A DNA stretch of 42,735 nt, from the NCBI GenBank assembly GCA_003248075.1, contig QJYK01000197.1:1-42735 (forward strand), written 5' to 3'. Positions 5,119 through 40,536 of this stretch are shown in pieces. The stretch comes from Gemmatimonadota bacterium (GTDB lineage: Bacteria; Gemmatimonadota; Gemmatimonadetes; Longimicrobiales; Gaopeijiaceae). Numbering within the stretch: position 1 is the first letter of the stretch; every line of letters starts with the position of its first letter. The notes under the pieces were generated by a model. The model saw only the letters and a list, made by a program, of their open reading frames with translations, ran no database searches and was not told the DNA's origin. Position numbers and translations under genes: made by a program.

Positions 5119-5628
5119 TCAGATGAAGACGACCTGTGCCCCCTCCGCCTTCTCCCAGAAATCCATGGCGGTGATGCTCTCGGTGACCTGTGGTACCAGG
5201 TCCGAGACCTCCAGGCCGAACATCTCCATGGCCAGCTGGCACGCGTACAACTCGGCCCCGGCGTCTCCGAGGATCTCCAGCATCTCGCGAACGTCGGGAA
5301 TGTCGAGCTTCTCCATCTTCTTCTTCATCATGCCGGTGGCCAGCGCCTCCATTCCGGGCAGTCCCATGACCGAGTGCGGCATGGGGCTCGACGGATTTCC
5401 CAGCATCCCCGCGTGGAGGTGATCCACCTTCTTGTCGTTGATGATATCCAATCCCCAGAACGTGAAGAAGACCATCGCCTCGAGACCCATCATGCGCGCC
5501 GCGTTGGCCATGATGAGGCCCGGGTAGGCCATGTCCAGGCTCCCCTTCGAGCAGATGATGGCGACCTTGCGCGAGGTCTCGTTCGCCTCGACGGGGGAGA
5601 GGACGTCCGCCTCCATCGTGGTGTTCAT
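5119..5628 (-). CDS. DsrE2-type (DsrE/F-like) sulfur-carrier protein
   Basis: 169 residues. Start MNTTMEAD is chosen because its ATG overlaps the stop of the upstream DsrC/TusE gene (TGATG); a longer reading frame extends over that gene in another frame and is rejected. The fold pattern (KVAIICSKGSLDMAYPGL, then MGLEAMVFFTFWGL, then GAELYACQLAMEMFGL) matches the DrsE_2/DsrE2 group. Conserved cysteines at 26 and 130 are candidate persulfide carriers. DsrE-family proteins pass sulfane sulfur to TusA/DsrC partners, and the upstream neighbour is such a partner. It is the last gene of the sulfur operon. Confidence 0.88.
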   Translation of the reverse strand: MNTTMEADVLSPVEANETSRKVAIICSKGSLDMAYPGLIMANAARMMGLEAMVFFTFWGLDIINDKKVDHLHAGMLGNPSSPMPHSVMGLPGMEALATGMMKKKMEKLDIPDVREMLEILGDAGAELYACQLAMEMFGLEVSDLVPQVTESITAMDFWEKAEGAQVVFI

Positions 5629-5942
5629 CAGATGCACCCCTTCGGCTTGGACAGGCCGGCGATTCGCGAGGCCAGGATCCCGGGTCCCTTGGGGAAGAGC
5701 TGGTACATCTCCTTCGTCGAGATCCCGGTTCCCTTGGTGATGCCGCGCACCGTCGGGGGGGCTCCCTTGTCCGCGTTCGTCCTGCGGCAGAAGTCGATCA
5801 CCTGCCAGTGCTTCTCGCTGAGTGTGATCCCACTCCCCGCCGCGATCTCCGCCGCGATCTCGGGCGTCCATTGATCGGGATTCAGAAGGAACCCCTCGGC
5901 ATCCACCTCGATCGGGCTTCCCGCCAACAGCATCGTGCTCAT
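5628..5942 (-). CDS. DsrC/TusE-family sulfur-relay protein
   Basis: 104 residues, the normal size for DsrC/TusE. Typical features are DAEGFLLNPDQWTPEIA, KHWQVIDFCRR and a flexible C-terminal arm ending KPKGCI with the penultimate cysteine (Cys103, 'CysA'). The second redox cysteine of respiratory DsrC ('CysB', 11 residues earlier) is serine 92 here, so no intramolecular trisulfide of the dissimilatory DsrC kind can form. The protein is therefore closer to TusE or a persulfide carrier. It overlaps both neighbours by 4 bases or fewer. No dsrAB is present in the window. Confidence 0.9.
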   Translation of the reverse strand: MSTMLLAGSPIEVDAEGFLLNPDQWTPEIAAEIAAGSGITLSEKHWQVIDFCRRTNADKGAPPTVRGITKGTGISTKEMYQLFPKGPGILASRIAGLSKPKGCI

Positions 5943-6517
5943 GTCGTTACTCCCGCGTCGTCGAAAGAGGTGGCCAGCGCCACCTCGGTCTTGGCATGGC
6001 CTTCGGATCCCATCTCCCGGAGCACGTTCAGCATGAGCGTCATGCCACGCCGCACTTCCGGGTCCCGCAACGCTCGCCAGAGCCCCGGCCGCCTGCGCGC
6101 GCCCTCGTCGGTCCCGTGCAGGGCCGTGGCGGCCCGGTCCGCGAGCTGCATGACGTCGGGCTGCGTGAGGTTGCGAACGGTTCTCAGGATTCCGACGACG
6201 TTGTCGCCGAGAAGACGGACGTCTTCTTCTGAGAACGACGTCGCAACCCGCTCGCCCATCTTCACCGCCTCCCGGGCGAAGCCGAGCGCACCGCCCTGCT
6301 CCAGCGCGTGGAGCTTGCGAGAGATCGCCTGGGAGGCGCCATGAACCATCGGCCAGAGGTCCTCGCGCATCTCCTCGAGCCCTTCGAGACGGTGTGTGAC
6401 CGCGTCGATGACGTGCTCGATGCGGTCCATCTTGGCGTTGAGCGCCCTCAGCTCCTGGAGGATCTCCGACGTACCGGTCTCCGCCGGCGAGAGGTCCATC
6501 ACTTCCGAGATCGTCAT
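5939..6517 (-). CDS. DUF1641 domain protein
   Basis: 192 residues from ATG 6517 (MTISEVMDLSPAETG); its stop overlaps the start of the DsrC/TusE gene. It is an all-helical, soluble-looking protein: residues about 18-60 form a likely coiled coil (ELRALNAKMDRIEHVIDAV), followed by the DUF1641 core (LLGDNVVGILRTVRNLTQPDVM, then RRGMTLMLNVLREMG). DUF1641 proteins are repeatedly found with SQR-like or formate-dehydrogenase-type oxidoreductases and have no established biochemical role. Here it sits between a flavoprotein and two sulfur carriers, so an adaptor role is a reasonable guess. Confidence 0.85.
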   Translation of the reverse strand: MTISEVMDLSPAETGTSEILQELRALNAKMDRIEHVIDAVTHRLEGLEEMREDLWPMVHGASQAISRKLHALEQGGALGFAREAVKMGERVATSFSEEDVRLLGDNVVGILRTVRNLTQPDVMQLADRAATALHGTDEGARRRPGLWRALRDPEVRRGMTLMLNVLREMGSEGHAKTEVALATSFDDAGVTT

Positions 6518-6519
6518 AG

Positions 6520-7752
6520 TCAGCTCCACTTGCCCAGCAGGGACATCTTCGAGTCGACGAACGGGATCTCGCGTCCAGCCAGCAGCTGGTTCCAGTAGAC
6601 CGAGCGAAACGCCATCTTGCCCCAGTGGTTGGCCTCGCTCTCGCCGAGAAGGCTCAGCGGGCCGATGCCGGGAAGCGGGAAACGACCAGGAAGCGGCTCG
6701 GTGTCGTAGTTGAAGTCGATGAGCACCGCCTTGCCGAATCCGGTCTCGATGAAGCAGTTGGCGTGTCCGTCGAAGTCCTCGCACAGCTTCCGGCCATCGA
6801 TGGCGCGGAGCACGTTCTTCTCGAGGACGTCCCCCTGGAAATGGGCCACCGACCCGGCCTTCGATGAGGGGAGATCGGTGGCATCACCGAGAACGAACAC
6901 GTTCTTGTGCTCCTTGGAGCGGAGCGTCTCCCGCTCCGTGGGGACGAAGGCGAGGTCGTCACCCATCCCGGATCGCTCGACGGCCTCACTCCCCATGTTC
7001 GTGGGTATCGACACGAGCAGATCGTACCGGACCTCTCGCCCGTCCCAGCTCTTGAGGATGCGACCGTCACCGTCGATCTCGCTCGCGTTGAACTCGGTCT
7101 CGACCAGGACGTTCTTCTCTGCGAGCAAGCCTCCCAGAAGCGCGGATGCCCGTGGCTTGGTGAAGGCTCCGTCCAGCGGCGTCGCGTAGACGAGCTCGAC
7201 CCTGTCCCGGTTCCCCTTCTGGTGGAAGAACCAATCCGCCAGAAAGAGAAACTCGAGCGGAGCGACCGGACACTTGATCGGCATCTCGGCAACGTTGAGC
7301 ACGAGCCGCCCCTGCTCGAACCGCTCGAGGGCGTAGAACAGCTGTTGGGCTCCCTCGAGCGTGTAGAAGTCGAAGATGTTCTTCCGCCAGCCCGGCCCGG
7401 TCAGCCCCTCAGTCTCCGCGGGTACGATGCGGCTTCCGGTCGCGACGATCAGGAGATCGTACGGGAGCCTCGACCCGTCGGAGAGCCGGACGGAGGACGT
7501 GTCCGGGTCGATCACGTCGATGCCCGACAGAACGAGCTCCACCCCGTTCGGGATGAAGCGTCTCCTCGGCTTCACGACATCGCGGGCTCGGTAGATCCCG
7601 AACGGGATGAAGAGGAGGCCGGGTTGATAGACATGGCGATCGTCCTGATCGACCACGGTGATCGCCCACTGGTCGGGGTCCAGCGCCCTGCGGAGCTTGG
7701 ATGCCATCATGGTCCCCGCGGTGCCACCCCCCAGGATCAGCAGCTTCTTCAT
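6520..7752 (-). CDS. sqr: sulfide:quinone oxidoreductase-like FAD protein
   Basis: 410 residues from ATG 7752, behind GAGGAAGGAC; the reading frame extends upstream but lacks a signal there. An N-terminal FAD Rossmann motif (LLILGGGTAGTMMASKL) and a second dinucleotide motif (VFVLGDATDLPSSKAGS) mark the SQR/FCSD-like two-dinucleotide-binding family. Cys161 (MPIKCPVAPLEF) and Cys333 (DGHANCFIETGFG) correspond to the two redox cysteines of mitochondrial-type SQR (human Cys201/Cys379 contexts). This supports oxidation of sulfide or a related sulfur compound with electrons to quinone. The C-terminal segment (about 360-410) has hydrophobic and aromatic residues suited to membrane docking. First gene of the operon. 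Confidence 0.85.
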   Translation of the reverse strand: MKKLLILGGGTAGTMMASKLRRALDPDQWAITVVDQDDRHVYQPGLLFIPFGIYRARDVVKPRRRFIPNGVELVLSGIDVIDPDTSSVRLSDGSRLPYDLLIVATGSRIVPAETEGLTGPGWRKNIFDFYTLEGAQQLFYALERFEQGRLVLNVAEMPIKCPVAPLEFLFLADWFFHQKGNRDRVELVYATPLDGAFTKPRASALLGGLLAEKNVLVETEFNASEIDGDGRILKSWDGREVRYDLLVSIPTNMGSEAVERSGMGDDLAFVPTERETLRSKEHKNVFVLGDATDLPSSKAGSVAHFQGDVLEKNVLRAIDGRKLCEDFDGHANCFIETGFGKAVLIDFNYDTEPLPGRFPLPGIGPLSLLGESEANHWGKMAFRSVYWNQLLAGREIPFVDSKMSLLGKWS

Positions 7753-7794: not shown

Positions 7795-7826
7795 CATCGA
7801 CACGAGGAGCAACAGCGATGCCGCAT
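7795..7826 (-). promoter_or_regulatory. sigma-54 promoter of sqr operon
   Basis: The minus strand reads GCGGCATCGCTGTTGCTCC: GG (7822-7821), exactly 10 bases, then GC (7810-7809). This matches TGGCACG-N4-TTGCW at 9 of 12 positions, including the invariant GG/GC and TTGCT. Transcription would start near 7797, leaving a leader of about 45 bases before the sqr ATG at 7752. The adjacent sigma-54 activator gene supports it. Confidence 0.72.
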
Positions 7827-7837
7827 GGGGTCGCGCG

Positions 7838-7885
7838 CTTATGTGACTATCCCACAGCGACTTATGTGAATAACACACCTGGTGT
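7838..7885. promoter_or_regulatory. repeat cluster between sigma-54 promoter and UAS
   Basis: A 9-mer CTTATGTGA occurs twice (7838-7846, 7861-7869) with starts 23 bases apart. It is followed by an 11-bp perfect palindrome ACACC-T-GGTGT (7875-7885). These lie about 40-90 bases upstream of the predicted start, where IHF or a second regulator would bind. TGTGA half-sites are CRP/FNR-like, but no full consensus site is present. Confidence 0.35.
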
Positions 7886-8003: not shown

Positions 8004-9722
8004 CTACAGGCCGTACTCCCTCATCTTCCGCCAGAGGGTCGTGCGGCTCATGCCCAGGATGCGGGCCGCCTCGTCACGCCGATAACGAGCCGACTCGAGC
8101 GCCGCCCGGATGCGACGCACCTCGAACGCCCGCCGGGACCCGGCGCCGTCGGGGTCCGTTTCGTCCACGGACCGGACCGTCGCCTGCGCGAACGCGGGAC
8201 CACCGGCGGGGAGGCGTGCATCCGCCTGCTCCTCATTGCCGATCTCGCGGGGGAGATCGCCGACGTGGATGGTCTGGCCCTGGCACACCGTGGTGGCGTA
8301 CTCCAGCGCGTTCTCCAGCTCCCGGACGTTCCCCGGCCACCCGTATCCGAGCAACGCCCGGCCGGCCGACGGGGCGAGGCGGAGGGATCGACCCCTCTCC
8401 CGACCGATTCGTCCGAGGAGGTGGCGGATGAGCAGCTCGAGGTCCTCGCGGCGCTCCCGGATGGGCGGGATGTGGATCGGCACCACCCGCAGCCGATAGT
8501 AGAGATCCTCCCGGAAGCGGCGCTCGGACACCGCCTGGACCAGGTTCACGTGCGTCGCCGCAATGATGCGGACATCCACCGTCCGCGTACGCGAGTCGCC
8601 GACCCGCTCGAACGTGCGCTCCTGCAGGAAACGCAGGATCTTCGCCTGCAGGGTGAGGGCGAGATCCCCGATCTCGTCCAGGAACAGCGTCCCGCCGTCG
8701 GCCAGCTCGAAACGTCCGGCCCGGTCCTTCACCGCCCCGGTGAACGCGCCTCGAACGTGGCCGAAGAGCTCGCTTTCGAGCAGCTCGGGGGGGATCGCAG
8801 CGCAGTTCACGGCGACGAAGGGGCCGCTCCGTCGGTGGGAGGTGTCGTGGAGCGCGCGCGCGACCAATTCCTTTCCCGTGCCGCTCTCCCCGGTCACGAG
8901 GACCGTCGAATCGTTCTCACGAAGCAGCTCGACCAACCGGAAGATCCGTTGCATCGCCGGCGACCGGGCGACCATCCCCTGGAACGCCGGCGCCGGTCCT
9001 GGCCCCGTCTCGGGTCTCATCATGACCACGTAGCGCCCCTCGGGCACTCCGCACGAGATCGTCTCGGGAACCGCACCGACCGTGAGGGAAACGCTCCGCG
9101 TGGTTCCGTCGGGCCCTGAGATCTCCGCGGCCCAGCCCTCCCTCCGCTCGCCCTGGGCAACCGCCGAGCGGAACGAGGCGGCCGGACCGAAGAGCTCGGT
9201 CCCGAGGAGCTCTTCCAGGGGCGTGCCCTGAAGTCGGTCCGTTGGGATGCCGACGACTTCGGCGAGCGCTGGATTGAAGGCCGCGACGCGGAAGTCGGAG
9301 TCGGCCACGATGAGAAGCCGTCCGAGCGCACCCAGGAGCCGGAACGGGTCGATCGCACCCGCCGCAGCGGAAATGGGCGTGCCGGAGGGACGAACGAACT
9401 CGATGGCGCCGGTCACGGCGCCGGCCTCGTCACGCAGGACCTGCCCTGACTTGAGCACCTCGACCTGCGTGCCGTCCGAGCGGTACAGCTGGAGCCGCAC
9501 GTCCTGCACCGACCCGTCCGCGAAAACTCCACAGCCCTTCAGGCACTCGGGGCAGCGGTTGAGCGTGAGACAGGAGCGCCCCAACACGTCGCGGGCGGCG
9601 AACCCCGTCAGGCGCTCCATCGCGGGGCTGAGAGCCACCACGTTGCGGTCCGCGTCGACGCGGAAGTACGGGAGGTCGGCCAGGTCGGCGAGCAGCGAGG
9701 TGGTGTCCCCTTCCCGGACCAT
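8004..9722 (-). CDS. sigma-54-dependent activator with Cys-rich PAS domain
   Basis: 572 residues from ATG 9722, preceded by GGAGG four bases upstream; a TTG 39 bases earlier is less likely and lies inside a palindrome. Domains: PAS-1 (about 10-112) with Cys51, 57, 60 and 64 (CLTLNRCPECLKGC); PAS-2 (about 126-225); AAA+ sigma-54 domain (about 240-470) with GESGTGKE, GAFTGA and GGTLFLDEIGD; C-terminal Fis-type helix-turn-helix (RRDEAARILGMSRTTLWRKM). There is no response-regulator receiver domain, so PAS domains are the likely signal input. The cysteine cluster suggests redox, metal or sulfur sensing, which is inference. It lies just upstream of the sqr operon, which has a sigma-54 promoter, and it probably activates it. 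Confidence 0.93.
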   Translation of the reverse strand: MVREGDTTSLLADLADLPYFRVDADRNVVALSPAMERLTGFAARDVLGRSCLTLNRCPECLKGCGVFADGSVQDVRLQLYRSDGTQVEVLKSGQVLRDEAGAVTGAIEFVRPSGTPISAAAGAIDPFRLLGALGRLLIVADSDFRVAAFNPALAEVVGIPTDRLQGTPLEELLGTELFGPAASFRSAVAQGERREGWAAEISGPDGTTRSVSLTVGAVPETISCGVPEGRYVVMMRPETGPGPAPAFQGMVARSPAMQRIFRLVELLRENDSTVLVTGESGTGKELVARALHDTSHRRSGPFVAVNCAAIPPELLESELFGHVRGAFTGAVKDRAGRFELADGGTLFLDEIGDLALTLQAKILRFLQERTFERVGDSRTRTVDVRIIAATHVNLVQAVSERRFREDLYYRLRVVPIHIPPIRERREDLELLIRHLLGRIGRERGRSLRLAPSAGRALLGYGWPGNVRELENALEYATTVCQGQTIHVGDLPREIGNEEQADARLPAGGPAFAQATVRSVDETDPDGAGSRRAFEVRRIRAALESARYRRDEAARILGMSRTTLWRKMREYGL

Positions 9723-9743
9723 GGGGCCTCCGTCGGGGCATGG

Positions 9744-9770
9744 TGGAACATCTCGTTTCAAGATGTTCCA
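9744..9770. promoter_or_regulatory. palindrome upstream of sigma-54 activator gene (autoregulatory site)
   Basis: Perfect 10-bp inverted repeat TGGAACATCT (9744-9753) / AGATGTTCCA (9761-9770) with a 7-base spacer, 22-48 bases upstream of the activator's ATG. Its arms match the half-sites before the sqr promoter at the pattern TGNAACRTCT. This fits binding by the same protein and autoregulation; a site this close to the start codon would more likely repress. Confidence 0.6.
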
Positions 9771-24745: not shown

Positions 24746-25291
24746 CTACAGATCCAGACGCAGCACCTCGGGATACACCCGGCTCGACTCGCGCGCCCCG
24801 TCTGCATGGACGTTTTCCACCCTGAGCAACGCGACTTTCGCGGCCAACCCACCGCTGAAGCCGCCGAGGCGATGCTCGGCGGCGACCACGCGATGGCATG
24901 GGATGATGATCGGAATCGGGTTCGCACCCACCGCCTGACCGATGGCCCGCGCCAGCTCGGGGCGACCGATGGTCTGCGCCAGCGCACCGTACGTCGTGAG
25001 GCGGCCATACGGGACCTTCAGCAGCTCGGCATAGACCTCACGCTGGAAATCGGTCACCGCGTCGAGGTCGAGTGGAAGGTCGAAGGCGCGACGGGAACCC
25101 GCGAAGTAGTCGCGAAGCTGCCCCACCGCGCGGGCCAGCGTGGGCGGCCAGGCTTCGGGCGACTGCACATGCGCGTCCGTGGGAAGGCCCCCGAACTCCA
25201 CGCGTCGAACACCCTTGTTCGATACCCACACCGTGATGGGCCCGGCCGGCGAGTCCGGAAGATGAGCGGAATAGACATCGGACGCGTTCAC
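24746..25291 (-). CDS. ogt: methylated-DNA-[protein]-cysteine S-methyltransferase
   Basis: 181 residues from GTG 25291, whose first bases overlap the sufU stop (GTGA), so it is translationally coupled to the SUF operon. The active site is PCHRV (IIIPCHRVVAAEHRLGGFSGG); YGALAQTIGRP and RAIGQAVGANP precede it. The protein transfers alkyl groups from O6-alkylguanine to the cysteine in a suicide reaction. It has the N-terminal extension of Ogt/MGMT and no Ada domain. Confidence 0.93.
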   Translation of the reverse strand: MNASDVYSAHLPDSPAGPITVWVSNKGVRRVEFGGLPTDAHVQSPEAWPPTLARAVGQLRDYFAGSRRAFDLPLDLDAVTDFQREVYAELLKVPYGRLTTYGALAQTIGRPELARAIGQAVGANPIPIIIPCHRVVAAEHRLGGFSGGLAAKVALLRVENVHADGARESSRVYPEVLRLDL

Positions 25292-25740
25292 GGCTCAGCT
25301 CCTTTCGCGCTCCTCTTGAGGGCCTCCTGCAAGGCGTCGAAGCCCAAAAGCGCGCATTTTATGCGCACGGGGAACTTGCTCACGCCGGCCAGCGCACGCA
25401 GATCGCCCATGCTCGGGTCCCGCGACGCCTCGGCATCGCCGTGCATCATCTGCGTGAAGCGGGATGCCAGCGACTCCGCCTCGTCGAGCGAGCGTCCCTT
25501 GAGCAGGGTCGTCATCATGCTCACTGACGCCTGGGAGATGGAGCATCCGTGGCCCACGAAGCGGGCCTCGGCGATGTGATCGTCGTGCAGGCGTAGCTGG
25601 AGCCGGATCTCGTCCCCGCACACCGGATTCCGCATGTGAACCTCCACGGTACCGTCGGGAAGCTCACCCCTGTTCCGCGGGTTGCGGTAGTGCTCGAGGA
25701 TGAGCTGCTGGTACAACGAGTTCAGCGGCGGCGTTTCCAT
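25288..25740 (-). CDS. sufU: SufU/IscU-like iron-sulfur scaffold
   Basis: 150 residues. Three conserved cysteines in context: MRNPVCGDEIRLQL, VGHGCSISQAS and RIKCALLGFDAL, as in SufU, which receives persulfide sulfur from SufS. LYQQLILEHYRNPRN is the typical N-terminus. It follows sufS by 53 bases and overlaps ogt by four. Gram-positive-type SufU also binds zinc through these cysteines. Confidence 0.93.
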   Translation of the reverse strand: METPPLNSLYQQLILEHYRNPRNRGELPDGTVEVHMRNPVCGDEIRLQLRLHDDHIAEARFVGHGCSISQASVSMMTTLLKGRSLDEAESLASRFTQMMHGDAEASRDPSMGDLRALAGVSKFPVRIKCALLGFDALQEALKRSAKGAEP

Positions 25741-25793
25741 GTGCGCTGCAATGTAGGGTCGAGGACGCGCCGCGACAGGAGGGGAGGGGCGCG

Positions 25794-27023
25794 CTAGCCG
25801 AAGATGGTACGCACCGCTTCCAGCCCCTCGACGAGGCGGTCGACGTCGGCCCGCGTGTTGTACAGGTAGAACGATGCCCGCGCCGTCGCCGAGATACCGA
25901 AGTGCTTCATGACGAGCTGAGCGCAGTGGTGACCCGCGCGTATCGCGACTCCCTGGGAGTCGAGAATGGTCGAGATGTCATGGGGGTGCGCGTCACCCAT
26001 CGTGAAGGACACCACCGCGGAGCGCTCGTCGAGGGACTCGGGCCCGTAGACCCTCACGCCGGTCACCGCAGCCAGGCCCTCCAGGGCATAGCGCAGCACG
26101 TCGCGCTCGTGTTCGACAATGGCATCCATCCCCAACGCGCTAAGGTATTCCACGGCGGCACCCAGGCCCACGGCGCCCGCGATGTTCGGAGTGCCGGCCT
26201 CGAACTTGTGTGGCACGGGCGCCCAGCTGCTCATGTCACGCTCGACGGTATGGATCATTTCGCCGCCACCCTGCCACGGGCTCATCGAGTCGAGCAGCTC
26301 GCGGCGCGCCCAGAGGGCGCCGATCCCGGTGGGCCCGCACATCTTGTGCCCGCTGAGGGCGTAGAAATCCGCCCCGAGCTCGTGGACGTCGACCCTGGAG
26401 TGCACCGCGCCCTGGGCACCGTCCACGAGCACGAGCGCGCCGGCGGCCCTCGCCCGGGCCGCGACCTCTTTCACCGGATTCACCGTGCCCAGAGCGTTGG
26501 AGACCTGCCCGAGCGCGACCAGCCTGGTGCGTTCCGTGAGCAAGTGGTCGAGACCGTCGAGGATCAGGCGGCCCTGGTCATCGATCTCGATGTAGCGGAG
26601 CCTGGCACCCGTGCGACGCGCCAGCAGCTGCCACGGAACGATGTTGGAGTGGTGCTCGAGCACGGTGAGGAGGATCTCGTCGCCCTCCCGCACGTTGTCG
26701 AGCCCCCAGGCGTGGGCCACGAGGTTGATGGCTCCGGTGGTTCCGGTGGTGAAGACCACCTCGGCCGCGTCCGACGCGCCGATCCAGCGGGCCAGCTCGA
26801 GGCGTGCGCCCTCGTAGGCTTCGGTGGCGCGCCGGGACAGCTCATGGATGCCACGGTGGACATTCGCGTTGTCGTGTACCCAATAGGCGTCCAGCGCGTC
26901 GAGAACGGGTTGCGGCTTCTGCGAGGTCGCGGCGCTGTCGAGATAGACCAGCGGCCTACCGTTCACGGTCTCCGCGAGCGTGGGAAACTCGGCGCGCACG
27001 CGCCCCACATCGAGCCGGTGCAT
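25794..27023 (-). CDS. sufS: SufS cysteine desulfurase
   Basis: 409 residues from ATG 27023, which coincides with the last base of the Rieske gene; the frame extends upstream over that gene without support. Class V aminotransferase features: YLDSAATSQKPQPV, VFTTGTTGAINLVA, the PLP lysine in LSGHKMCGPTG and the persulfide cysteine in IRAGHHCAQLVMKHFG. It takes sulfur from cysteine for Fe-S assembly, producing alanine. Confidence 0.95.
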   Translation of the reverse strand: MHRLDVGRVRAEFPTLAETVNGRPLVYLDSAATSQKPQPVLDALDAYWVHDNANVHRGIHELSRRATEAYEGARLELARWIGASDAAEVVFTTGTTGAINLVAHAWGLDNVREGDEILLTVLEHHSNIVPWQLLARRTGARLRYIEIDDQGRLILDGLDHLLTERTRLVALGQVSNALGTVNPVKEVAARARAAGALVLVDGAQGAVHSRVDVHELGADFYALSGHKMCGPTGIGALWARRELLDSMSPWQGGGEMIHTVERDMSSWAPVPHKFEAGTPNIAGAVGLGAAVEYLSALGMDAIVEHERDVLRYALEGLAAVTGVRVYGPESLDERSAVVSFTMGDAHPHDISTILDSQGVAIRAGHHCAQLVMKHFGISATARASFYLYNTRADVDRLVEGLEAVRTIFG

Positions 27024-27331
27024 CAGACCTCCACGAAGACCTCGCCATCGCGGATCTCGACGGGGAAGGACTTGACCGGGCGCACCGCGGGCAGGCCCTT
27101 GTTGCGACCTGTGCACACGTCGAAACGCGCCCCGTGATAGATGCAGGTCAGATCATCGCCGTCGAGCTCCCCGTCACTGAGCGGGAACTCCTGATGCGAG
27201 CATTGATCCTCGAGCGCATAGATGTCGCCGTCCACGTTGGCCAGCACGACGGGCTGGCGTCCCACCATCACGCCCTTCAGGGTCCCGGCCGGGCACTCCG
27301 CAAGGCTCGCGACCCGTGTCCACTCCGCCAT
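27023..27331 (-). CDS. Rieske-type [2Fe-2S] protein
   Basis: 102 residues. The Cys-x-His and Cys-x2-His pairs are seen as CSHQEFPLSDGE and CIYHGARFDVCTGR, matching the ferredoxin-like Rieske subunit of non-haem oxygenases (also NirD-like). Its position between sufD and sufS, overlapping sufS by one base, is a recurring SUF arrangement in some phyla. It may donate electrons for cluster assembly; that is inference. Confidence 0.9.
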   Translation of the reverse strand: MAEWTRVASLAECPAGTLKGVMVGRQPVVLANVDGDIYALEDQCSHQEFPLSDGELDGDDLTCIYHGARFDVCTGRNKGLPAVRPVKSFPVEIRDGEVFVEV

Positions 27332-27341
27332 CTCGGCCCGC

Positions 27342-28685
27342 TCAGGCCTTGCGGGCGAGCTTCTGCTGGATGACGCGCGTCACCTTCTCGGACACGCCCC
27401 CCAGCGGAAGCCGCGACAGCACCTCCCCAAGGAATCCCAGCACCACCAGTCGCTCCGCCTGGACCCTGGGAAGCCCTCGGCTCTGGAGGTAGAAACGCGC
27501 CTCCTCGTCCAGCTCACCCACGGTGGCACCGTGACTGCACTTCACGTCGTCGGCCTCGATCTCGAGGTTGGGCAGCGAGTCGGCGCGCGCATGCGGTGAC
27601 AGCAGCAGGTTGCGGTTCGTCTGGTACGCGTCGGTGCGCTGGGCGCCGGGGTGCACGCGGATGATGCCCCGGAAGACAGCCCGACTCGCACCGTCGAGTG
27701 CGCCCTTGTAGAGCAGGTCGGAGCCCGCGTTCGGCGCGACGTGGTCCTGACTCGTGTTGAAGTCGAAGTGCTGGTCCTCGTCCCCGAAGTAGAGGCCGAG
27801 CATGTCCGAGTTCGAGCCGGGGCCGAGCAGCCGCGCGTTCAGATCCACGCGCGTGGTCGTCCCGCCCAGAGCGACGTTCAACGTGTCGAGCGTGGCGTCC
27901 CGGCCGGCAAGCGTGCGCTGCACCGACTGGTAGAAGGCGCCCTTCCCGAGTCGTTGCACCGCGACGTACTGGACCTGCGCACCATCCTGTGCGATCACCT
28001 CGACCGCGGACGACGTGAGCATCTGCGCATCGAAATCGTCCGACAGGACTTCGTCGACGTACGAGACCTGGCTCGCCGTCTCCGCCACGATGAGGGTGCG
28101 AGAGAACGAGGCCACGCCGGCCTCGCTGAACCAGCGTGTGATGCGGACGGGCGACTCCAACCGGACGCCGCGAGGCACGTACAGGAAGATCCCGTCGTTC
28201 CAGAGCGCCGCGTTCAACGCGGCGAACTTCCCTTCTTCCGGGGGTACGGCCTTGGTGGCGAGGTACTCCTTCACCAGGTGCGGATGAGACTCGATCGCGT
28301 CGTGTAGCGAGGCGAGCACAACACCCTTCCTGGCGAGCGACTCGTCGATGTCCGTGTGTACCACGTGCCCGTCGATGACGACCAGGTGGCCCGACGCCTC
28401 GCGGTCCTGGGCCATGGTCTCGCGCAGGCGCATCGGCCACGACGCGAAATCGTCCGCCGCGGGCGGCGCGTCACTTAGCCGCAGCACCTCCAGGTCGAGC
28501 TTCCGCCGCAGGTCCGTGTAGCGCCACTCCTCGAGCCGCGTCGACGGCATCGGCGTGCGCTCGTACACGTCCCACGCGTGGTCGCGCCGCTCACGCAGCC
28601 AGTTCGGCTCCTTGGCCGAAACGCGCCCGACCGCCGCGCCGTTGAGCGCCGAAGTCACCCCTTCCATGAGCCCCGTATCGTTCAT
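27342..28685 (-). CDS. sufD: SufD, Fe-S assembly protein
   Basis: 447 residues with the SufB/SufD beta-helix core: GIFLYVPRGVRLESPV, then RTLIVAETASQVSYVDE, DARLLGPGSNSDMLGLYFG and KCSHGATVGELDEEARFYLQSRG (the His/Glu region). It lacks the extra N-terminal region of SufB and forms SufBC2D with the neighbours. Spacing: 10 bases to the Rieske gene downstream, 150 bases to sufB upstream, where a palindromic element sits. Confidence 0.93.
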   Translation of the reverse strand: MNDTGLMEGVTSALNGAAVGRVSAKEPNWLRERRDHAWDVYERTPMPSTRLEEWRYTDLRRKLDLEVLRLSDAPPAADDFASWPMRLRETMAQDREASGHLVVIDGHVVHTDIDESLARKGVVLASLHDAIESHPHLVKEYLATKAVPPEEGKFAALNAALWNDGIFLYVPRGVRLESPVRITRWFSEAGVASFSRTLIVAETASQVSYVDEVLSDDFDAQMLTSSAVEVIAQDGAQVQYVAVQRLGKGAFYQSVQRTLAGRDATLDTLNVALGGTTTRVDLNARLLGPGSNSDMLGLYFGDEDQHFDFNTSQDHVAPNAGSDLLYKGALDGASRAVFRGIIRVHPGAQRTDAYQTNRNLLLSPHARADSLPNLEIEADDVKCSHGATVGELDEEARFYLQSRGLPRVQAERLVVLGFLGEVLSRLPLGGVSEKVTRVIQQKLARKA

Positions 28686-28729
28686 GAGCGACAGTTCTGG
28701 TTCCCTAGAAAAAGAACAAGAAAGTTCTG

Positions 28730-28837
28730 AGAGCGTTCAAATCGGATGCCAGAGCACCGGATTCCGAGACGTAGCGGCGCTACGTCGGAGTTAACGGAGC
28801 GGAGCCCAACGCAGCATGGCGCCGATTTCAACGCTCT
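28730..28837. repeat. 108-bp palindromic MITE/REP-like element between sufB and sufD
   Basis: Terminal inverted repeats AGAGCGTTCAAATCGG (28730-28745) and CCGATTTCAACGCTCT (28822-28837) match at 15 of 16 positions. Near the centre is a perfect 8-bp hairpin, GACGTAGC (28768-28775) / GCTACGTC (28779-28786), with a GGC loop. The right end lies against the sufB stop (TAG at 28838-28836), and the left end follows an AT-rich stretch before sufD. No coding capacity. A folded RNA here could adjust the sufB:sufD ratio. Confidence 0.65.
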
Positions 28838-30251
28838 AGCCCACCGACCCTTCCATCTCCAGCTCGATGAGCCGATTCAATTCCACGGCGTACTCGAGCG
28901 GCAGCTCCTTCGCGATCGGCTCGATGAACCCGCGCACGATCATCGCCATCGCCTCGTCTTCCGGGATGCCGCGGCTCGTCAGGTAGAAGAGCTGCTCCTC
29001 GCCGATCTTCGAGACCGAGGCCTCGTGGCCGACGTTCGCGTCGTTCTCCTCGATCTCGATGTAGGGATACGTGTCCGTGCGCGACGTGTCGTTGATGAGG
29101 AGCGCGTCGCACTCGACGTTCGAGCGGGCGTGGTGTGCGCCCTCGTGTACCTTGAGCAGCCCGCGGTACGACGAGCGGCCCGTTCCCTTCGAGATCGACT
29201 TCGACACGATCGAAGACGTAGTGCGTGGCGCCACATGGATCACCTTGCCACCCGTGTCCTGGTGCTGGCCGTTGCCCGCGTAGGCGATGGAAAGGATCTC
29301 GCCGTGCGCACCCTCGCCGATCAGGTAGCAGGACGGATACTTCATCGTCAGCTTCGACCCCAGGTTCCCGTCCAACCACTCCATGTGGGCGCCCTCGTGC
29401 ACCAGCGCCCGCTGGGTCACGAGGTTGTACATGTTGTTCGACCAGTTCTGGATGGTCGTGTAGCGGAAGCGGGCGTTCTTCTTCACCACGATCTCGATCA
29501 CGCCGGAGTGGAACGACTCGGTGCTGTAGACCGGCGCTGTGCATCCCTCGATGTAGTGCGCGTTCGCACCCTCGTCGACGACGATGAGGGTGCGCTCGAA
29601 CTGGCCCATGCGCTCCTGGTTCACGCGGAAGTACGCCTGCAGCGGGGTCTCCAGCTTCACGCCCTTCGGGATGTACACGAATGACCCGCCGGACCAGACC
29701 GCCGAGTTCATGGCCGCGAACTTGTTGTCGTGCGGCGGGATGACCGTGGAGAAGTACTCCCGGAACAGCTCGGGGTGGTTCTTGAGGCCGTCTTCGATCG
29801 AGTCGAAGATCACGCCCTTGGACGACCACTCCTCGCGCAGCGAGTGGTACACCATCTCGGACTCGTACTGCGCACCGACGCCGGCCAGGATCTTACGCTC
29901 GGCCTCGGGAATCCCGAGCTTTTCGAACGTGTCCTTGATCTCCTGCGGGACCTCGTCCCACGTGTGGCCCATGCGGTCCTGCGGTCGGACGTAGAAGTAG
30001 ATCTCGCTGAGCACGTCCTCGAGCCCGCGCAGGTCCCCGCCCCACGTGGGCATGGGCTTGGCCTGGTAGATCTTCAGCGCCTTGAGACGGAACGCGAGCA
30101 TCCACTCGGGCTCGTCCTTGTGCGCGGAGATCTGGCGCACGACCTCTTCGGACAGGCCCTTCTCCGCCTGGAAGACGGGCTTGGCGTCGGTCTTGAACCC
30201 GTACTTGTACTGGTCGAGGTCCAGACCCTGGATGACTTCATTCTGCGGCAT
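28836..30251 (-). CDS. sufB: SufB, Fe-S assembly protein
   Basis: 471 residues. Typical SufB elements are YKYGFKTD at the start, [56 protein letters not shown] and the C-terminal [21 protein letters not shown] with its conserved glutamates, plus [13 protein letters not shown]. It is the scaffold of the SufBC2D complex. The gene follows sufC by about 38 bases. Its stop codon is at the edge of the palindromic element. Confidence 0.95.
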
Positions 30252-30289
30252 GGTCGATCCTTCGTTCCTGACGGACGTCCTCTCCGACT

Positions 30290-31072
30290 TCAGGCGCTCT
30301 GCACGGCCTCGTGCTCACGCCAGCTCTTGTAGCCCTCCTCCTCCAGCGCGATCGCGACGTCGGGCCCGCCCGACCGGACGATCTTGCCGTCCACCATCAC
30401 GTGGACGTAGTCGGGCTTGATGTGCTCGAGCAGTCTTTGGTAATGGGTGATCAGCAGCACCGTCATCTCCGGGTTTTCGACGGTCAACTTGTTCACCCCG
30501 TTCGACACGACCTTGAGCGCGTCGATGTCGAGCCCGGAATCGGTCTCGTCCATAACCGCGAGCGTGGGCCTCAGCACGGCCATCTGGAGGATCTCGTTTC
30601 TCTTCTTCTCTCCGCCCGAGAAGCCTGCGTTCACGTGCCGCTCGGCGAAGGTCGGGTCCACGTCCAGAAGCTCCATCCGCTCGAGGAGCACGTCCTGGAA
30701 GTCGAACAGGTCCAGCTCCTCGCCTTCGGGAAGGTGGGCCTGCACGGCAGTGCGGAGGAAATTCGCGATGGAGACGCCGGGGATGTCCACCGGATATTGG
30801 AAGGCCAGGAAGATGCCGGCCCGCGAACGCTCGTCGGGCTCCCGGTCCAGGATGTCCTCCCCCTTGAACGACACCGCGCCGGCCGTGACCTCGTAGCCGG
30901 GATGGCCGGCCAAAACCTTGGCCAGGGTGCTCTTTCCTGATCCGTTGGGGCCCATGATCGCATGGATCTCCCCCGCTCCGAGCTCCAGGTCCACCCCGCG
31001 CAGGATCTCGAGATCGTCCTCCGCCACCTTGGCATGGAGACCGCTGATCTTCAGAATGGGAGCGTTGCTCAT
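30290..31072 (-). CDS. sufC: SufC, ABC-type ATPase of Fe-S assembly
   Basis: 260 residues from ATG 31072; the frame extends much further upstream through the divergent lipase gene and that part is a shadow. Walker [10 protein letters not shown], signature [12 protein letters not shown], Walker B ending [16 protein letters not shown], and the D-loop region are present. It hydrolyses ATP to drive conformational change in SufB-SufD. First gene of the suf operon. Confidence 0.96.
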
Positions 31073-31114
31073 CGAGTCCTCATCGGCGCGTGGATCGCCG
31101 GGCGTGGGGCCCGG

Positions 31115-31142
31115 CTTATCAAGAATGATTCTCGGTTTCAAA
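31115..31142 (-). promoter_or_regulatory. suf operon promoter with palindromic operator
   Basis: In an AT-rich pocket 43-70 bases before sufC, the minus strand reads TTGAAA then GATAAG, spaced 15 bases (a short but possible sigma-70 promoter). Between them is the 11-bp perfect palindrome AGAAT-G-ATTCT (31122-31132). Its surroundings match the 7-1-7 Fur consensus at about 9 of 14 positions. An IscR/SufR-type site is equally possible; no regulator gene is in the window. Confidence 0.45.
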
Positions 31143-31169
31143 CCTAGACGGGGGTCCCCCGAGAGGCAA

Positions 31170-32096
31170 GTGGACGAAACCGCCGAAAACGTCGCCCGGG
31201 GTGGCCGCACGCCGGTCCCCGAAGAAGGGGGGTCGGGTACCCCCGAGCCGCTCCCCGGGTCCCTCGGATCGGAACCGTGGCTGGTGCTCGGCGGCGGAGG
31301 GTTGAAGGGGCTCGCACACATCGGTGCGATCAGGGCCGTCGTGGAAGCCGAGGTCCGCATTGGCGGCATCGTGGGAACGAGCATCGGGGCGTTGATCGGG
31401 GCCATCTGGTCGGCCGGCACGGGGTGGCGGGAGATGCGCGAAGCGGCACGCGCGCTACGGAAGGAGGACATCATCCGCGTGAACCGCCGGGCGGTCCTGT
31501 TCAACGGAATCCGCCAGCCGAGCGTCTTCCGCGGCGACACGCTGCGGGAGTACCTGGAACGGCTCCTGCCGGAGGGAGGCTGGAGCGCGCTGAGGGTGCC
31601 CCTGCTCGTCAACGCCGTCGACTTGGCCACGGGGCGTACCGAGTGGTTCGGCCCCGGGGCGCGCACCGACCTCCCCCTCGTCGACGTGGTCTATGCGTCC
31701 TCGGCACTGCCCGTATTCTATCCACCGCTCGTCGAGGGCGGACGCGCCTATGTGGACGGCGGCGCCGAGCATCCGATCGGCGTGGCCCGCGCCAGGGCGG
31801 CGGGCGCGTCCGGTCTCATCGCGGTGGACGTGGGGTCGGGCGAGACCGGAGATGCCGAGACGATCCTGGCAAAGGGGATGCTCGCGGTGCACCAACGGAT
31901 CTTCGCCATCATGACCTATCGGCGGAGGCGCGAGGCCGTCGACGGCTGGGCCGGTCCGCCCCTCGTCTACGTGCGCCCGCGTCTCGAGGGATACGGGACC
32001 TTCGACTTCGGGCACGTGGAGTACTTCGTCGAGGAAGGGTATCGGGCCACCCGAGAAGCGCTCGGCCGTGGAAACGCTTCCCCCCCGCCCACGTAG
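31170..32096 (+). CDS. patatin-like phospholipase
   Basis: 308 residues from GTG 31170, preceded by GAGAGG; the frame runs upstream into sufC antisense and was cut there. Oxyanion-hole glycine cluster VLGGGGLKGLAHIG, nucleophile GTSIGAL (GxSxG) and catalytic aspartate DGGAEHPIG are the patatin serine-aspartate dyad. It probably hydrolyses phospholipid or acylglycerol. No clear signal peptide; cytosolic or membrane-associated. Divergent from sufC, with which it shares a 97-base gap. Confidence 0.9.
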   Translation: MDETAENVARGGRTPVPEEGGSGTPEPLPGSLGSEPWLVLGGGGLKGLAHIGAIRAVVEAEVRIGGIVGTSIGALIGAIWSAGTGWREMREAARALRKEDIIRVNRRAVLFNGIRQPSVFRGDTLREYLERLLPEGGWSALRVPLLVNAVDLATGRTEWFGPGARTDLPLVDVVYASSALPVFYPPLVEGGRAYVDGGAEHPIGVARARAAGASGLIAVDVGSGETGDAETILAKGMLAVHQRIFAIMTYRRRREAVDGWAGPPLVYVRPRLEGYGTFDFGHVEYFVEEGYRATREALGRGNASPPPT

Positions 32097-37771: not shown

Positions 37772-38404
37772 TCATCGGGAGGTCGGGCCTTCGAGAACGA
37801 GCGCCACCACGCGCGCGGGCCCATGGACGCCTCGAACGAGGACCTGGCCGATGTCGGCTGATTTGCTCGGGCCCGAGTGAAGGCCGATGGCCGAGGGCAG
37901 GTCGCCGGCCAAAGAGGTCAGCGCGTCCGTCAGGGTGGCGTGGACGTCACGCTCACGCACGAGCACGACATGGGTCGGAGGGAGGATCTGGGTCCGTCGT
38001 CCGTCGCGGGCATCGAGGATCAGAGAACCGGTCTCGGCCACGGCGCCACGCGCCATGGACACACCCAGCGCGGCCAGCTCGGGCGCCGCGGTGCCCAGGC
38101 CGACCGCGACCCCGAGCGGGAGGGTCGCGCCGAGCGAGACCGCGCCGAAGCCCTGCGCAAAGCGGAGCAGCCACGACTCGGCCTCCTCCTCGGACGACGC
38201 CCGGGCCACCTCGCCCCCGGCCGCCGCGAACATGCGGGCGAAGCGGTCCACGAGCTGAGCCGGCGTCGGGGGTTTCTCGGCTCCCCCGGTGGGCCGCCAT
38301 CCCTCGAACGGACCCGGGTGCTCGAAGCGGAGACGGCCCTCCAACGCCGATCGCACACGGCGGAGAACGGCATCACGACCCTGGCCCCCGACCCCGTCGC
38401 TCAT
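37772..38404 (-). CDS. lutC: LutC-like LUD-domain protein
   Basis: 210 residues from ATG 38404, overlapping the lutB stop (TGATG). The LUD domain (DUF162) is shown by SLGATLPLGVAVGLGTAAPELAAL-like text, AETGSLILDA and PTHVVLVRERDVHATLTDAL, and the end SADIGQVLVRGVHGP. LutC is the third component of the LutABC L-lactate oxidising complex. It lies 17 bases before the permease gene. Confidence 0.9.
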   Translation of the reverse strand: MSDGVGGQGRDAVLRRVRSALEGRLRFEHPGPFEGWRPTGGAEKPPTPAQLVDRFARMFAAAGGEVARASSEEEAESWLLRFAQGFGAVSLGATLPLGVAVGLGTAAPELAALGVSMARGAVAETGSLILDARDGRRTQILPPTHVVLVRERDVHATLTDALTSLAGDLPSAIGLHSGPSKSADIGQVLVRGVHGPARVVALVLEGPTSR

Positions 38405-39795
38405 TCGATCCCCTCCCTCCAGAGCCGGTGGAAGGGCTTGGGGCTGAACGAGGGAGCCAGGCGCTCGTCGGTCCATCCACCGAGCACCGGCAGTGAACGG
38501 CGGCCTATCGGCGAGCTCGCAGCGCGCAGCGCCGCGCCCGCGAGGTGGAACAGAGTCGGCCGCTCGGCCGCGACGGCGAACCCGTGCATCGCCGCCCGCT
38601 CGGCCGACGGCACGAGACCGGCCTCCACGGCGCGCTCCCTCCAGTAGAGAAGGAGGTCCGGGATGGGGATGCGCACCGGGCATACGTCGGCACAGGCGCC
38701 GCAGAGGCTGGAGGCGTACGGAAGCGGCATGGCCTCCTCCAGCCCGAGGAGCCCCGGCGCCAGGATCGCCCCGATGGGGCCGGAGTACGTGAAGCCGTAA
38801 GGGTGGCCTCCGGTCTGGCGGTAGACGGGGCAGATGTTCAGGCAGGCTCCGCAGCGTACGCAGCGCAGCGCCTCCCAGGCGCGATCGTCCGCGAGCACGC
38901 GGGTCCGGCCATTGTCCACCAGCACGACGTGCATCTCCTCGGGCCCGTCCCGCTCGTCGTCTCCTCGCGGACCCTGGATCAGCGACACGTAGTTGCCGAT
39001 GGGCTGACCCGTCGCGCTCCTGGACGTGAGCTGGAGGAAGGCGGACAGGTCGACGAAGCGTGGGACGAGCTTCTCGATCCCCACCATGGCCACGTGGATG
39101 CGCGGCGCCGACGTGCTCAGTCGGATGTTGCCTTCGTTCTCGATGAGCGCGACGGTCCCCGTCTCCGCCGCAAGGAAGTTGCCGCCCGAGATCCCGAGGT
39201 CGGCCTTGAGGAACTCGGTGCGCAGCGCCGCCCGTGCCGCCGCTGCCAACGCGTCCGGGGTAGCGTCCGGTGGGGTCCCGAGCACCCTCGCGAAAAGCTG
39301 CCTGCAGTCCTCGACGCTCAGGTGGATCGCCGGGCCGACGATGTGGCTCGGTGGCTGACCCAGCAGCTGGATGATGTATTCGCCGAGATCGGTCTCGCGC
39401 ACGGTCACGTCGTGCGACTCGAGGAAGGCGTTCACACCGAGCTCCTCGGTGAGCATGCTCTTCGCCTTCACCGCGCGCTTGACCCCGGCTGCCCGCACGA
39501 TGCCGTCGAGGACGTCCAAGGCATCCGCGGCCGTCTCGGCCCAATGGACGCGGACGCCGTTCCGCTCCATCGCCCGCTCCGCGACCTCCAGGTATCGGTC
39601 CAGGTGCGTGAGTGCATGCCGCTTCACGTCTCGCAGCCAGTCCCGCCAACGGGCCGCATCAATCTCACGCCACGCGGCCTCCCGTCCGCCATCGAAGGTG
39701 CGCGTCGCCGCGGAGACGGCTCGGCGTACTCCGGGCTGCTCCCGGATCGAGCGCTTGGAGCGCTCGGGATAACCGGCGGGCCCGTCCGGCATCAT
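38401..39795 (-). CDS. lutB: LutB-like iron-sulfur LUD protein
   Basis: 464 residues from ATG 39795. An LUD domain (about 60-300; KAKSMLTEELGVN, ETGTVALIENEGN) is followed by two 4Fe-4S motifs (RCVRCGACLNICPVY and LCGACADVCPVRIP). LutB carries electrons from 2-hydroxy acid oxidation. The start overlaps the lutA stop. Extra N-terminal reading frame beyond this ATG is a shadow over lutA. Confidence 0.93.
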   Translation of the reverse strand: MMPDGPAGYPERSKRSIREQPGVRRAVSAATRTFDGGREAAWREIDAARWRDWLRDVKRHALTHLDRYLEVAERAMERNGVRVHWAETAADALDVLDGIVRAAGVKRAVKAKSMLTEELGVNAFLESHDVTVRETDLGEYIIQLLGQPPSHIVGPAIHLSVEDCRQLFARVLGTPPDATPDALAAAARAALRTEFLKADLGISGGNFLAAETGTVALIENEGNIRLSTSAPRIHVAMVGIEKLVPRFVDLSAFLQLTSRSATGQPIGNYVSLIQGPRGDDERDGPEEMHVVLVDNGRTRVLADDRAWEALRCVRCGACLNICPVYRQTGGHPYGFTYSGPIGAILAPGLLGLEEAMPLPYASSLCGACADVCPVRIPIPDLLLYWRERAVEAGLVPSAERAAMHGFAVAAERPTLFHLAGAALRAASSPIGRRSLPVLGGWTDERLAPSFSPKPFHRLWREGIE

Positions 39796-40532
39796 GGAGC
39801 GGTCCTCAGCCCAACCGAGGTGCCCACCCCCTCCCAAAGCACCGAGGCGAGATGACGGAACCGGGTTGTCAGCAGACGACGCCCGGCGCGGCCAGAGAGC
39901 TGCATGAGGCATCCACCATCGGCCGAGGTGACGAAGTGCACGTCCGGAAGCGAGTCCAGCTTGGCGTCCGCCATGGCCGCGGACACCGCAGGTAGCTTCG
40001 CGGCGAAGAGGCCTCCGAAACCGCAACACTCGCGGTCCGCCCTCCAGTCGACGACCTCCGCGCCGGCCCCGGCGAGCAGCCTCAGGGGCTCGTCGTGCTC
40101 GCCCAGCAGGCGCAGCGCGTGACACCCATGGTGATAGGCCACGCGACGTCCCGACAGTCCCGTTCCGAGCCGCTCCACTCCGGCGACGCGCACCAGGAAC
40201 TCCGAGAGCTCGTACGTCCGGGCCGCGAGCGCCTCGGCATGCCGCCGTTCCTCACCTTCGAAGAGCTCGGGAACGTGATGGCGCATCATCGCTGTGCAGC
40301 TTCCGGAGGGAAGCACGACCCAGTCGGCGCCCCCCAGCGCTTCGAGTGTGTGGCGCGCGGCGCGACGTGCCTCCTGAGCGTACCCGGCATTGAGCGCAGG
40401 CTGTCCGCAGCACGTGAGCCCGGCAGGCACCTCCACGGTCGCGCCGACGTGGCGGAGGAGGCGGACCGCGTCGACGCACGCGTCGGCGAACAGTCGATCC
40501 CCCAGGCAGGTCGAGAAGAAGGAGACGCGCAC
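39792..40532 (-). CDS. lutA: LutA-like CCG-domain oxidoreductase subunit
   Basis: 246 residues from GTG 40532. Two cysteine-rich CCG domains are seen: LTCCGQPALNAGYAQEAR and CCGFGGLFAAKLPAVSAAMADAKL, plus YHHGCHALRLLGE. These bind 4Fe-4S clusters as in LutA/GlcF/HdrB. It lies four bases after the membrane glycosyltransferase-like gene and overlaps lutB. Confidence 0.93.
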   Translation of the reverse strand: MRVSFFSTCLGDRLFADACVDAVRLLRHVGATVEVPAGLTCCGQPALNAGYAQEARRAARHTLEALGGADWVVLPSGSCTAMMRHHVPELFEGEERRHAEALAARTYELSEFLVRVAGVERLGTGLSGRRVAYHHGCHALRLLGEHDEPLRLLAGAGAEVVDWRADRECCGFGGLFAAKLPAVSAAMADAKLDSLPDVHFVTSADGGCLMQLSGRAGRRLLTTRFRHLASVLWEGVGTSVGLRTAP

Positions 40533-40536
40533 CTGC

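Follow-up and report, generated by a model that had tools for sequence, protein, structure and literature searches.

The contig analysed here, a stretch of 42,735 nucleotides from a Gemmatimonadota bacterium (hereafter the window), carries a gene for a DUF1641 protein lodged between the gene of a flavoprotein resembling sulfide:quinone oxidoreductase (SQR) and those of two sulfur carriers of the DsrC/TusE and DsrE2 types. This arrangement raises the question of the contribution of a domain of unknown function to such an operon, and of the destination of the electrons and the sulfur that the flavoprotein would release. The SQR enzyme class and the class of coupling proteins to which we relate DUF1641 below were each already known separately. 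In the openly accessible literature searched, no paper tying DUF1641 to SQR operons was found, nor any description of a conserved operon that combines SQR and DUF1641 with the two carriers DsrC and DsrE2, or of the gene fusions reported here.

Our main reading, to which we give about two chances in three, is that the four genes constitute a regulated sulfide-oxidation module in which SQR passes its electrons to menaquinone via DUF1641 and its persulfide to DsrC and DsrE2. The type III SQR would oxidise sulfide with its FAD and the Cys161/Cys333 pair, the electrons going to menaquinone; DUF1641, a helical protein akin to ForE, YjlC and HucM, would dock on SQR at its C-terminal domain, on the quinone side, and couple it to the membrane quinone pool; and the sulfane sulfur, rather than leaving the system, would be taken up as persulfide on CysA of DsrC and Cys130 of DsrE2. 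Such a scheme provides a domain of unknown function, part of a sulfur operon with a wide distribution, with a role open to testing, and proposes a destination for SQR-derived sulfur in bacteria lacking the usual acceptors. It also brings ForE, YjlC, HucM and the DUF1641 of the module under one idea, that of a shared helical adaptor connecting peripheral oxidoreductases to menaquinone.

Composition and distribution of the four-gene module

The four genes recognized in the initial annotation at positions 5119-7752 are present, and Pfam and NCBIfam models agree with their assignment to families. All are on the minus strand and are read from 7752 to 5119 in the order sqr, DUF1641, dsrC, dsrE2. The first (6520-7752) encodes a type III SQR-like flavoprotein of 410 aa, which scores 625 bits against the type III SQR model NF049943 (cut-off 525) and matches an SQR of the Protein Data Bank (PDB) at E=6e-49. 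It is followed, after the 2-base gap previously reported, by the gene of the DUF1641 protein (5939-6517, 192 aa; PF07849, 42.8 bits for a gathering cut-off of 21). The dsrC/tusE-like gene (5628-5942, 104 aa; PF04358 and TIGR03342) and the dsrE2-like gene (5119-5628, 169 aa; PF13686) complete the set. Overlaps of 4 bases had been described at both remaining junctions; this holds for DUF1641/dsrC (ATGA), whereas dsrC and dsrE2 share a single base (TGATG, 5630-5626), the ATG start of dsrE2 being at 5628.

Both redox cysteines initially pointed out in the flavoprotein, Cys161 and Cys333, are present, and they are kept in 106/107 and 107/107 homologues respectively, the one exception having Asn at position 161. 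The NF049943 model carries the label “selenoprotein subtype”; the window sqr has no in-frame TGA and encodes Cys at both catalytic positions, as do the other homologues counted. The window SQR is thus the Cys form, and the absence of selenocysteine has no bearing on its type III membership. An SQR-like paralogue at locus L070 (4616-5935) has Asn in place of Cys161, with no dsrC or dsrE2 match nearby.

Among the 395 genomes of the same phylum searched for an SQR of this kind, 50 encode one at E<=1e-60, and 34 of those are above the NF049943 cut-off. The regions around these genes, together with 80 named loci from a species-genome collection, make up a set of 111 loci (107 distinct SQRs); the 80 named loci were those most similar to the query, and they provide no measure of module frequency. 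All four genes are present and separate in 55 of the 111 loci, and DUF1641 and DsrC are fused in one open frame in 14. DUF1641 is not indispensable, since 31 loci keep sqr-dsrC-dsrE2 without it; the last 11 are incomplete, several being cut by contig ends. The same order sqr-DUF1641-dsrC-dsrE2 occurs in at least 12 phyla, the DUF1641-bearing named hosts being affiliated to Chloroflexota, Actinomycetota, Calditrichota, Fidelibacterota, Ignavibacteriota, Bacteroidota, Verrucomicrobiota, Planctomycetota, KSB1, WOR-3, Myxococcota and Pseudomonadota-labelled bins, in addition to named relatives within the Gemmatimonadota. Across many phyla, the DUF1641 start lies no further than -10 or +14 bases from the SQR stop, with a single exception among 73 loci (72 of 73), and this gene order is far beyond chance. 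In the SQR tree, at least six changes in the presence of DUF1641 are needed, and at least two for the fusion. No DUF1641 homologue was found in the plasmid collection searched.

DUF1641 relatives and the predicted connection to the quinone pool

The initial annotation considered DUF1641 to have no known activity. This view is not supported: the protein belongs with the ForE/YjlC/HucM coupling proteins. A profile built from 58 DUF1641 proteins and matched against the PDB retrieved ForE1/YjgD, the menaquinone-coupling subunit of a formate dehydrogenase (E=7e-11), and YjlC, described as an “NDH-2 membrane coupling protein” (E=1.6e-4), whose partner in the same PDB entries, the flavoprotein YjlD, is among the matches of the window SQR. 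The profile of the module subgroup reaches HucM directly at E=0.14 only; for a DUF1641 protein whose gene neighbours that of a Huc-type hydrogenase, the match to HucM has E=2.7e-14, terminal DUF1641 motif included. ForE1 was required for formate:menadione activity and bound MK-7 (PMC8808070), and HucM builds a tube of helices that is probably the path taken by menaquinone to Huc (PMC10017518). The AlphaFold2 model of the window protein is all-helical, with a 58-residue helix (pTM 0.45). Foldseek and VIA-align gave no structural match to it, probably due to the long isolated helices of the model, and the connection with ForE, YjlC and HucM is consequently drawn from sequence. The best reading of these similarities is that DUF1641 would be a membrane/quinone coupling subunit of SQR. 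The adaptor role initially suggested for it is retained as far as a linking protein is concerned; from its membership of this group, the protein would mainly link the flavoprotein to quinone in the membrane, and the fusions with DsrC appear as a second tether.

Each of the known systems resembles the module in part. In the ForCE complex of Bacillus subtilis, ForE is a DUF1641 protein, its gene adjoins that of the catalytic subunit and a soluble enzyme is coupled to menaquinone (PMC8808070), but catalysis there is by a formate dehydrogenase with Mo/W and there are no sulfur carriers, in contrast to the SQR and carriers of the module. YjlD-YjlC (PDB 9pxk and 9snk) associates a flavoprotein of the SQR superfamily with a coupling protein bearing the DUF1641 motif, although it uses NADH and not sulfide, and the full-length similarity of YjlC is weak. 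The Huc [NiFe]-hydrogenase likewise relies on a DUF1641-type helical subunit, HucM, for menaquinone access of an enzyme that is not membrane-integral (PMC10017518); HucM itself is a tetrameric stalk.

An independent survey was made with 25 DUF1641 genes of Bacillota, Chloroflexota and Gemmatimonadota found by the Pfam model and not via SQR, the neighbouring proteins being clustered and representatives scanned with Pfam. A predominance of unrelated oxidoreductases had been set beforehand as the outcome that would speak against the initial interpretation, and the result is mixed and informative: 14 of the 25 genes adjoin an SQR-III-family flavoprotein and 7 another quinone-linked oxidoreductase (5 Huc-type hydrogenases and 2 formate dehydrogenases), the neighbourhood being unclear for 4. 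The common factor of these neighbours is quinone-linked oxidoreductases, not DsrC. A neighbouring FAD oxidoreductase was also reported to rise together with a DUF1641 protein in Ignicoccus (PMC3149612). Within the Chloroflexota part of the survey, the SQR of L205 (635 bits) and probably those of L208 and L210 are close copies of that of the module, and these loci may be further copies of it. In 5 of the more distant SQR-type cases (L201-L204 and L207), a different DUF1641-SQR operon type of Chloroflexota, a metallo-beta-lactamase/rhodanese protein of the persulfide-processing type is encoded.

The latter proteins also bear on the substrate. The sulfide role of this SQR subgroup derives from homology, and the flavoprotein could instead take another thiol or a persulfide, the module then being a persulfide or redox-stress system. 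The proximity of related DUF1641-SQR pairs to rhodanese/metallo-beta-lactamase proteins, the invariance of both SQR cysteines and the close match to the type III model make this improbable, and we retain sulfide as the predicted substrate.

The C-terminus of the flavoprotein is consistent with coupling through a partner protein. In most SQRs it forms a pair of amphipathic helices (PMC9666304). The proteins studied here present one conserved helix (NHWGK..YWN) followed by a tail of 17-18 residues in most homologues and 18 in the window, apparently leaving no room for another amphipathic helix that could serve as anchor. Caldivirga maquilingensis SqrC is of the same SQR type according to the model and the cysteines; its membrane binding has been ascribed to the C-terminal helices (PMC9666304), in contrast to the one helix, short tail and coupling protein of the window. 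The loci without DUF1641 count against the main reading, as no obvious replacement anchor was seen in their SQR tails. A column-by-column comparison of SQRs with and without DUF1641 placed 9 of the 14 most label-linked columns within residues 337-410, in the C-terminal domain, against 1-5 for six control clades and 1-6 for fifteen clade pairs, and still 9 after omission of the largest DUF1641-less clade; this region was chosen once the ranking was known, which makes the signal a hint only, and the loci compared share ancestry and are phylogenetically non-independent. The same comparison returned fewer DUF1641-linked columns in DsrE2 than in SQR and almost none in DsrC, the latter result also counting against the main reading.

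The fusions suggest that DsrC is tethered near SQR in the lineages that have them, and they offer ready-made constructs for experimental tests. Those of the Myxococcota type (L110, L113, L114, L118, L119, L128, L142, L149, L150, L151 and L156) have a Pro/Ala-rich linker, where an extra cysteine often occurs within a short motif (ACAVPS or ACATPS, for example). In the one fusion protein modelled, the DsrC domain is well folded, helices are predicted with lower confidence for the DUF1641 part and the linker is disordered; no confident DUF1641-DsrC interface was obtained in this model. With 14 fusions of at least two origins, and DUF1641 sitting between sqr and dsrC wherever it is present in the module, the protein could be thought of mainly as a scaffold bringing DsrC, and with it DsrE2, to SQR for persulfide hand-over, its quinone role being secondary. 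We consider this unlikely: relatives of DUF1641 serve formate dehydrogenase, Huc-type hydrogenase and NDH-2, none of which has a DsrC, as well as SQRs lacking that carrier, the modelled fusion has a disordered linker and no confident contact between its two domains, and it is the SQR sequence, not that of DsrC, that responds to the loss of DUF1641. Coupling of SQR to the quinone pool is therefore kept as the main predicted function. A bolder version of it, which we advance tentatively and would not bet on at even odds, is that SQR, DUF1641 and DsrC form one membrane-docked complex, where the DUF1641 stalk would give access to menaquinone and the DsrC tethered to it, covalently attached in Myxococcota and some Gemmatimonadota, would receive sulfane sulfur directly at the active site of SQR. 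This would amount to a cytoplasmic sulfide-oxidation route operating without glutathione persulfide, TusA or reverse sulfite reductase in at least a dozen phyla.

The sulfur carriers and the predicted persulfide relay

The product of dsrC scores 84 bits against TIGR03342 (cut-off 53.5) and has the penultimate cysteine (CysA, Cys103), which places it in the TusE/DsrC superfamily of sulfur relay proteins. As noticed from the start, Ser92 occupies the CysB position. The homologues counted agree, CysA being kept in 98/98 and CysB in 0/99 (Ala in 90, Ser in 9); organisms that lack DsrAB are reported to show this same pattern (PMC3397948). A DsrC acting as sulfite-reductase partner is characterized by CysA, CysB and DsrAB; the window protein lacks CysB, and the genome to which it belongs (assembly 96% complete) gave no match for DsrA. 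These two observations favour sulfide oxidation over dissimilatory sulfite reduction, in line with the initial proposal, and the reverse Dsr pathway was rejected for lack of a DsrA match in this assembly. The same assembly gave no match for TusA, and a TusA-linked relay was likewise rejected for this genome.

The product of dsrE2 scores 126.7 bits against PF13686 (DrsE_2, cut-off 25) and 110.6 bits against NF047629, the equivalog model of the DsrE2 sulfur carrier, below its cut-off of 210; it is therefore designated as DsrE2-like and not as the named equivalog. Cys26 and Cys130 had both been highlighted and are both found in the window protein; Cys130 is invariant (91/91 homologues), and Cys26 is not to be stressed, being kept in only 38 of about 95. 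A persulfide relay, as initially put forward, is supported as the likely role of the two carriers. It recalls the DsrEFH-DsrC system of Allochromatium vinosum, where a persulfide is carried on the penultimate cysteine of DsrC and on a DsrE-family cysteine (PMC3397948). That relay nevertheless involves a reverse DsrAB and a DsrC bearing CysB, and here neither DsrA nor CysB is found. In Allochromatium, sulfur goes from DsrE to DsrC and not back, and in the present module the orders SQR to DsrC to DsrE2 and SQR to DsrE2 to DsrC are consequently both possible.

The absence of CysB together with the conservation of CysA is also what would be expected from TusE, and the operon might merely supply sulfur to a DsrC acting in tRNA 2-thiolation. 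We regard this as very improbable, given the 66 bits obtained against the TusE equivalog (cut-off 191), the lack of a TusA match in the genome, a partner that is DsrE2 and not TusBCD, and the constant coupling to a quinone-linked SQR. The persulfide relay from SQR thus remains the preferred role of these carriers.

Heterodisulfide-type CCG proteins are encoded in the genome, with further copies on contigs C7 and C41. The CCG pair of the window (39897-40526), considered as a candidate sHdr, adjoins a LutB-like gene and is probably involved in lactate utilisation and not sHdr, whereas the copies on C7 and C41 may still belong to an sHdr system; the LutB-like gene and the CCG-domain matches together span 38401-40553 on the minus strand. 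The window also contains a SUF Fe-S assembly operon (25288-31666, minus strand) composed of an ABC ATPase, two SufB/D and a SufS-like class-V aminotransferase, about 18 kb from the module.

Upstream region and candidate regulators

Upstream of sqr, a candidate sigma-54-type promoter, CGGCATCGCTGTTGCT (GG-N10-GC), is located at 7808-7823 on the minus strand. It is preceded by two copies of an 18-nt direct repeat, spaced 23 bases apart (7838-7855 and 7861-7878, minus strand), which are possible activator sites. Further upstream, a gene on the same strand (8004-9761) encodes a sigma-54 activator (EBP; Pfam Sigma54_activat) with PAS domains, the likely regulator of the module; in other Gemmatimonadota-like loci, relatives of this activator also precede sqr. 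Of 110 sqr genes examined, 21 have a sigma-54-like site upstream, for 3.4 expected, and every locus with a close relative of this activator has such a site. In other lineages the same position is occupied by a MerR-like, ArsR-like or other helix-turn-helix gene, as named from the starts of their sequences, and with these different regulator genes in one position the module seems to form a unit under its own regulation. The EBP also displays in its PAS domain a cysteine motif, C-x5-C-x2-C-x3-C, conserved in the 8 sequences that could be aligned, a duplicate record included, which could possibly act as a sensor of sulfide/persulfide or of redox state.
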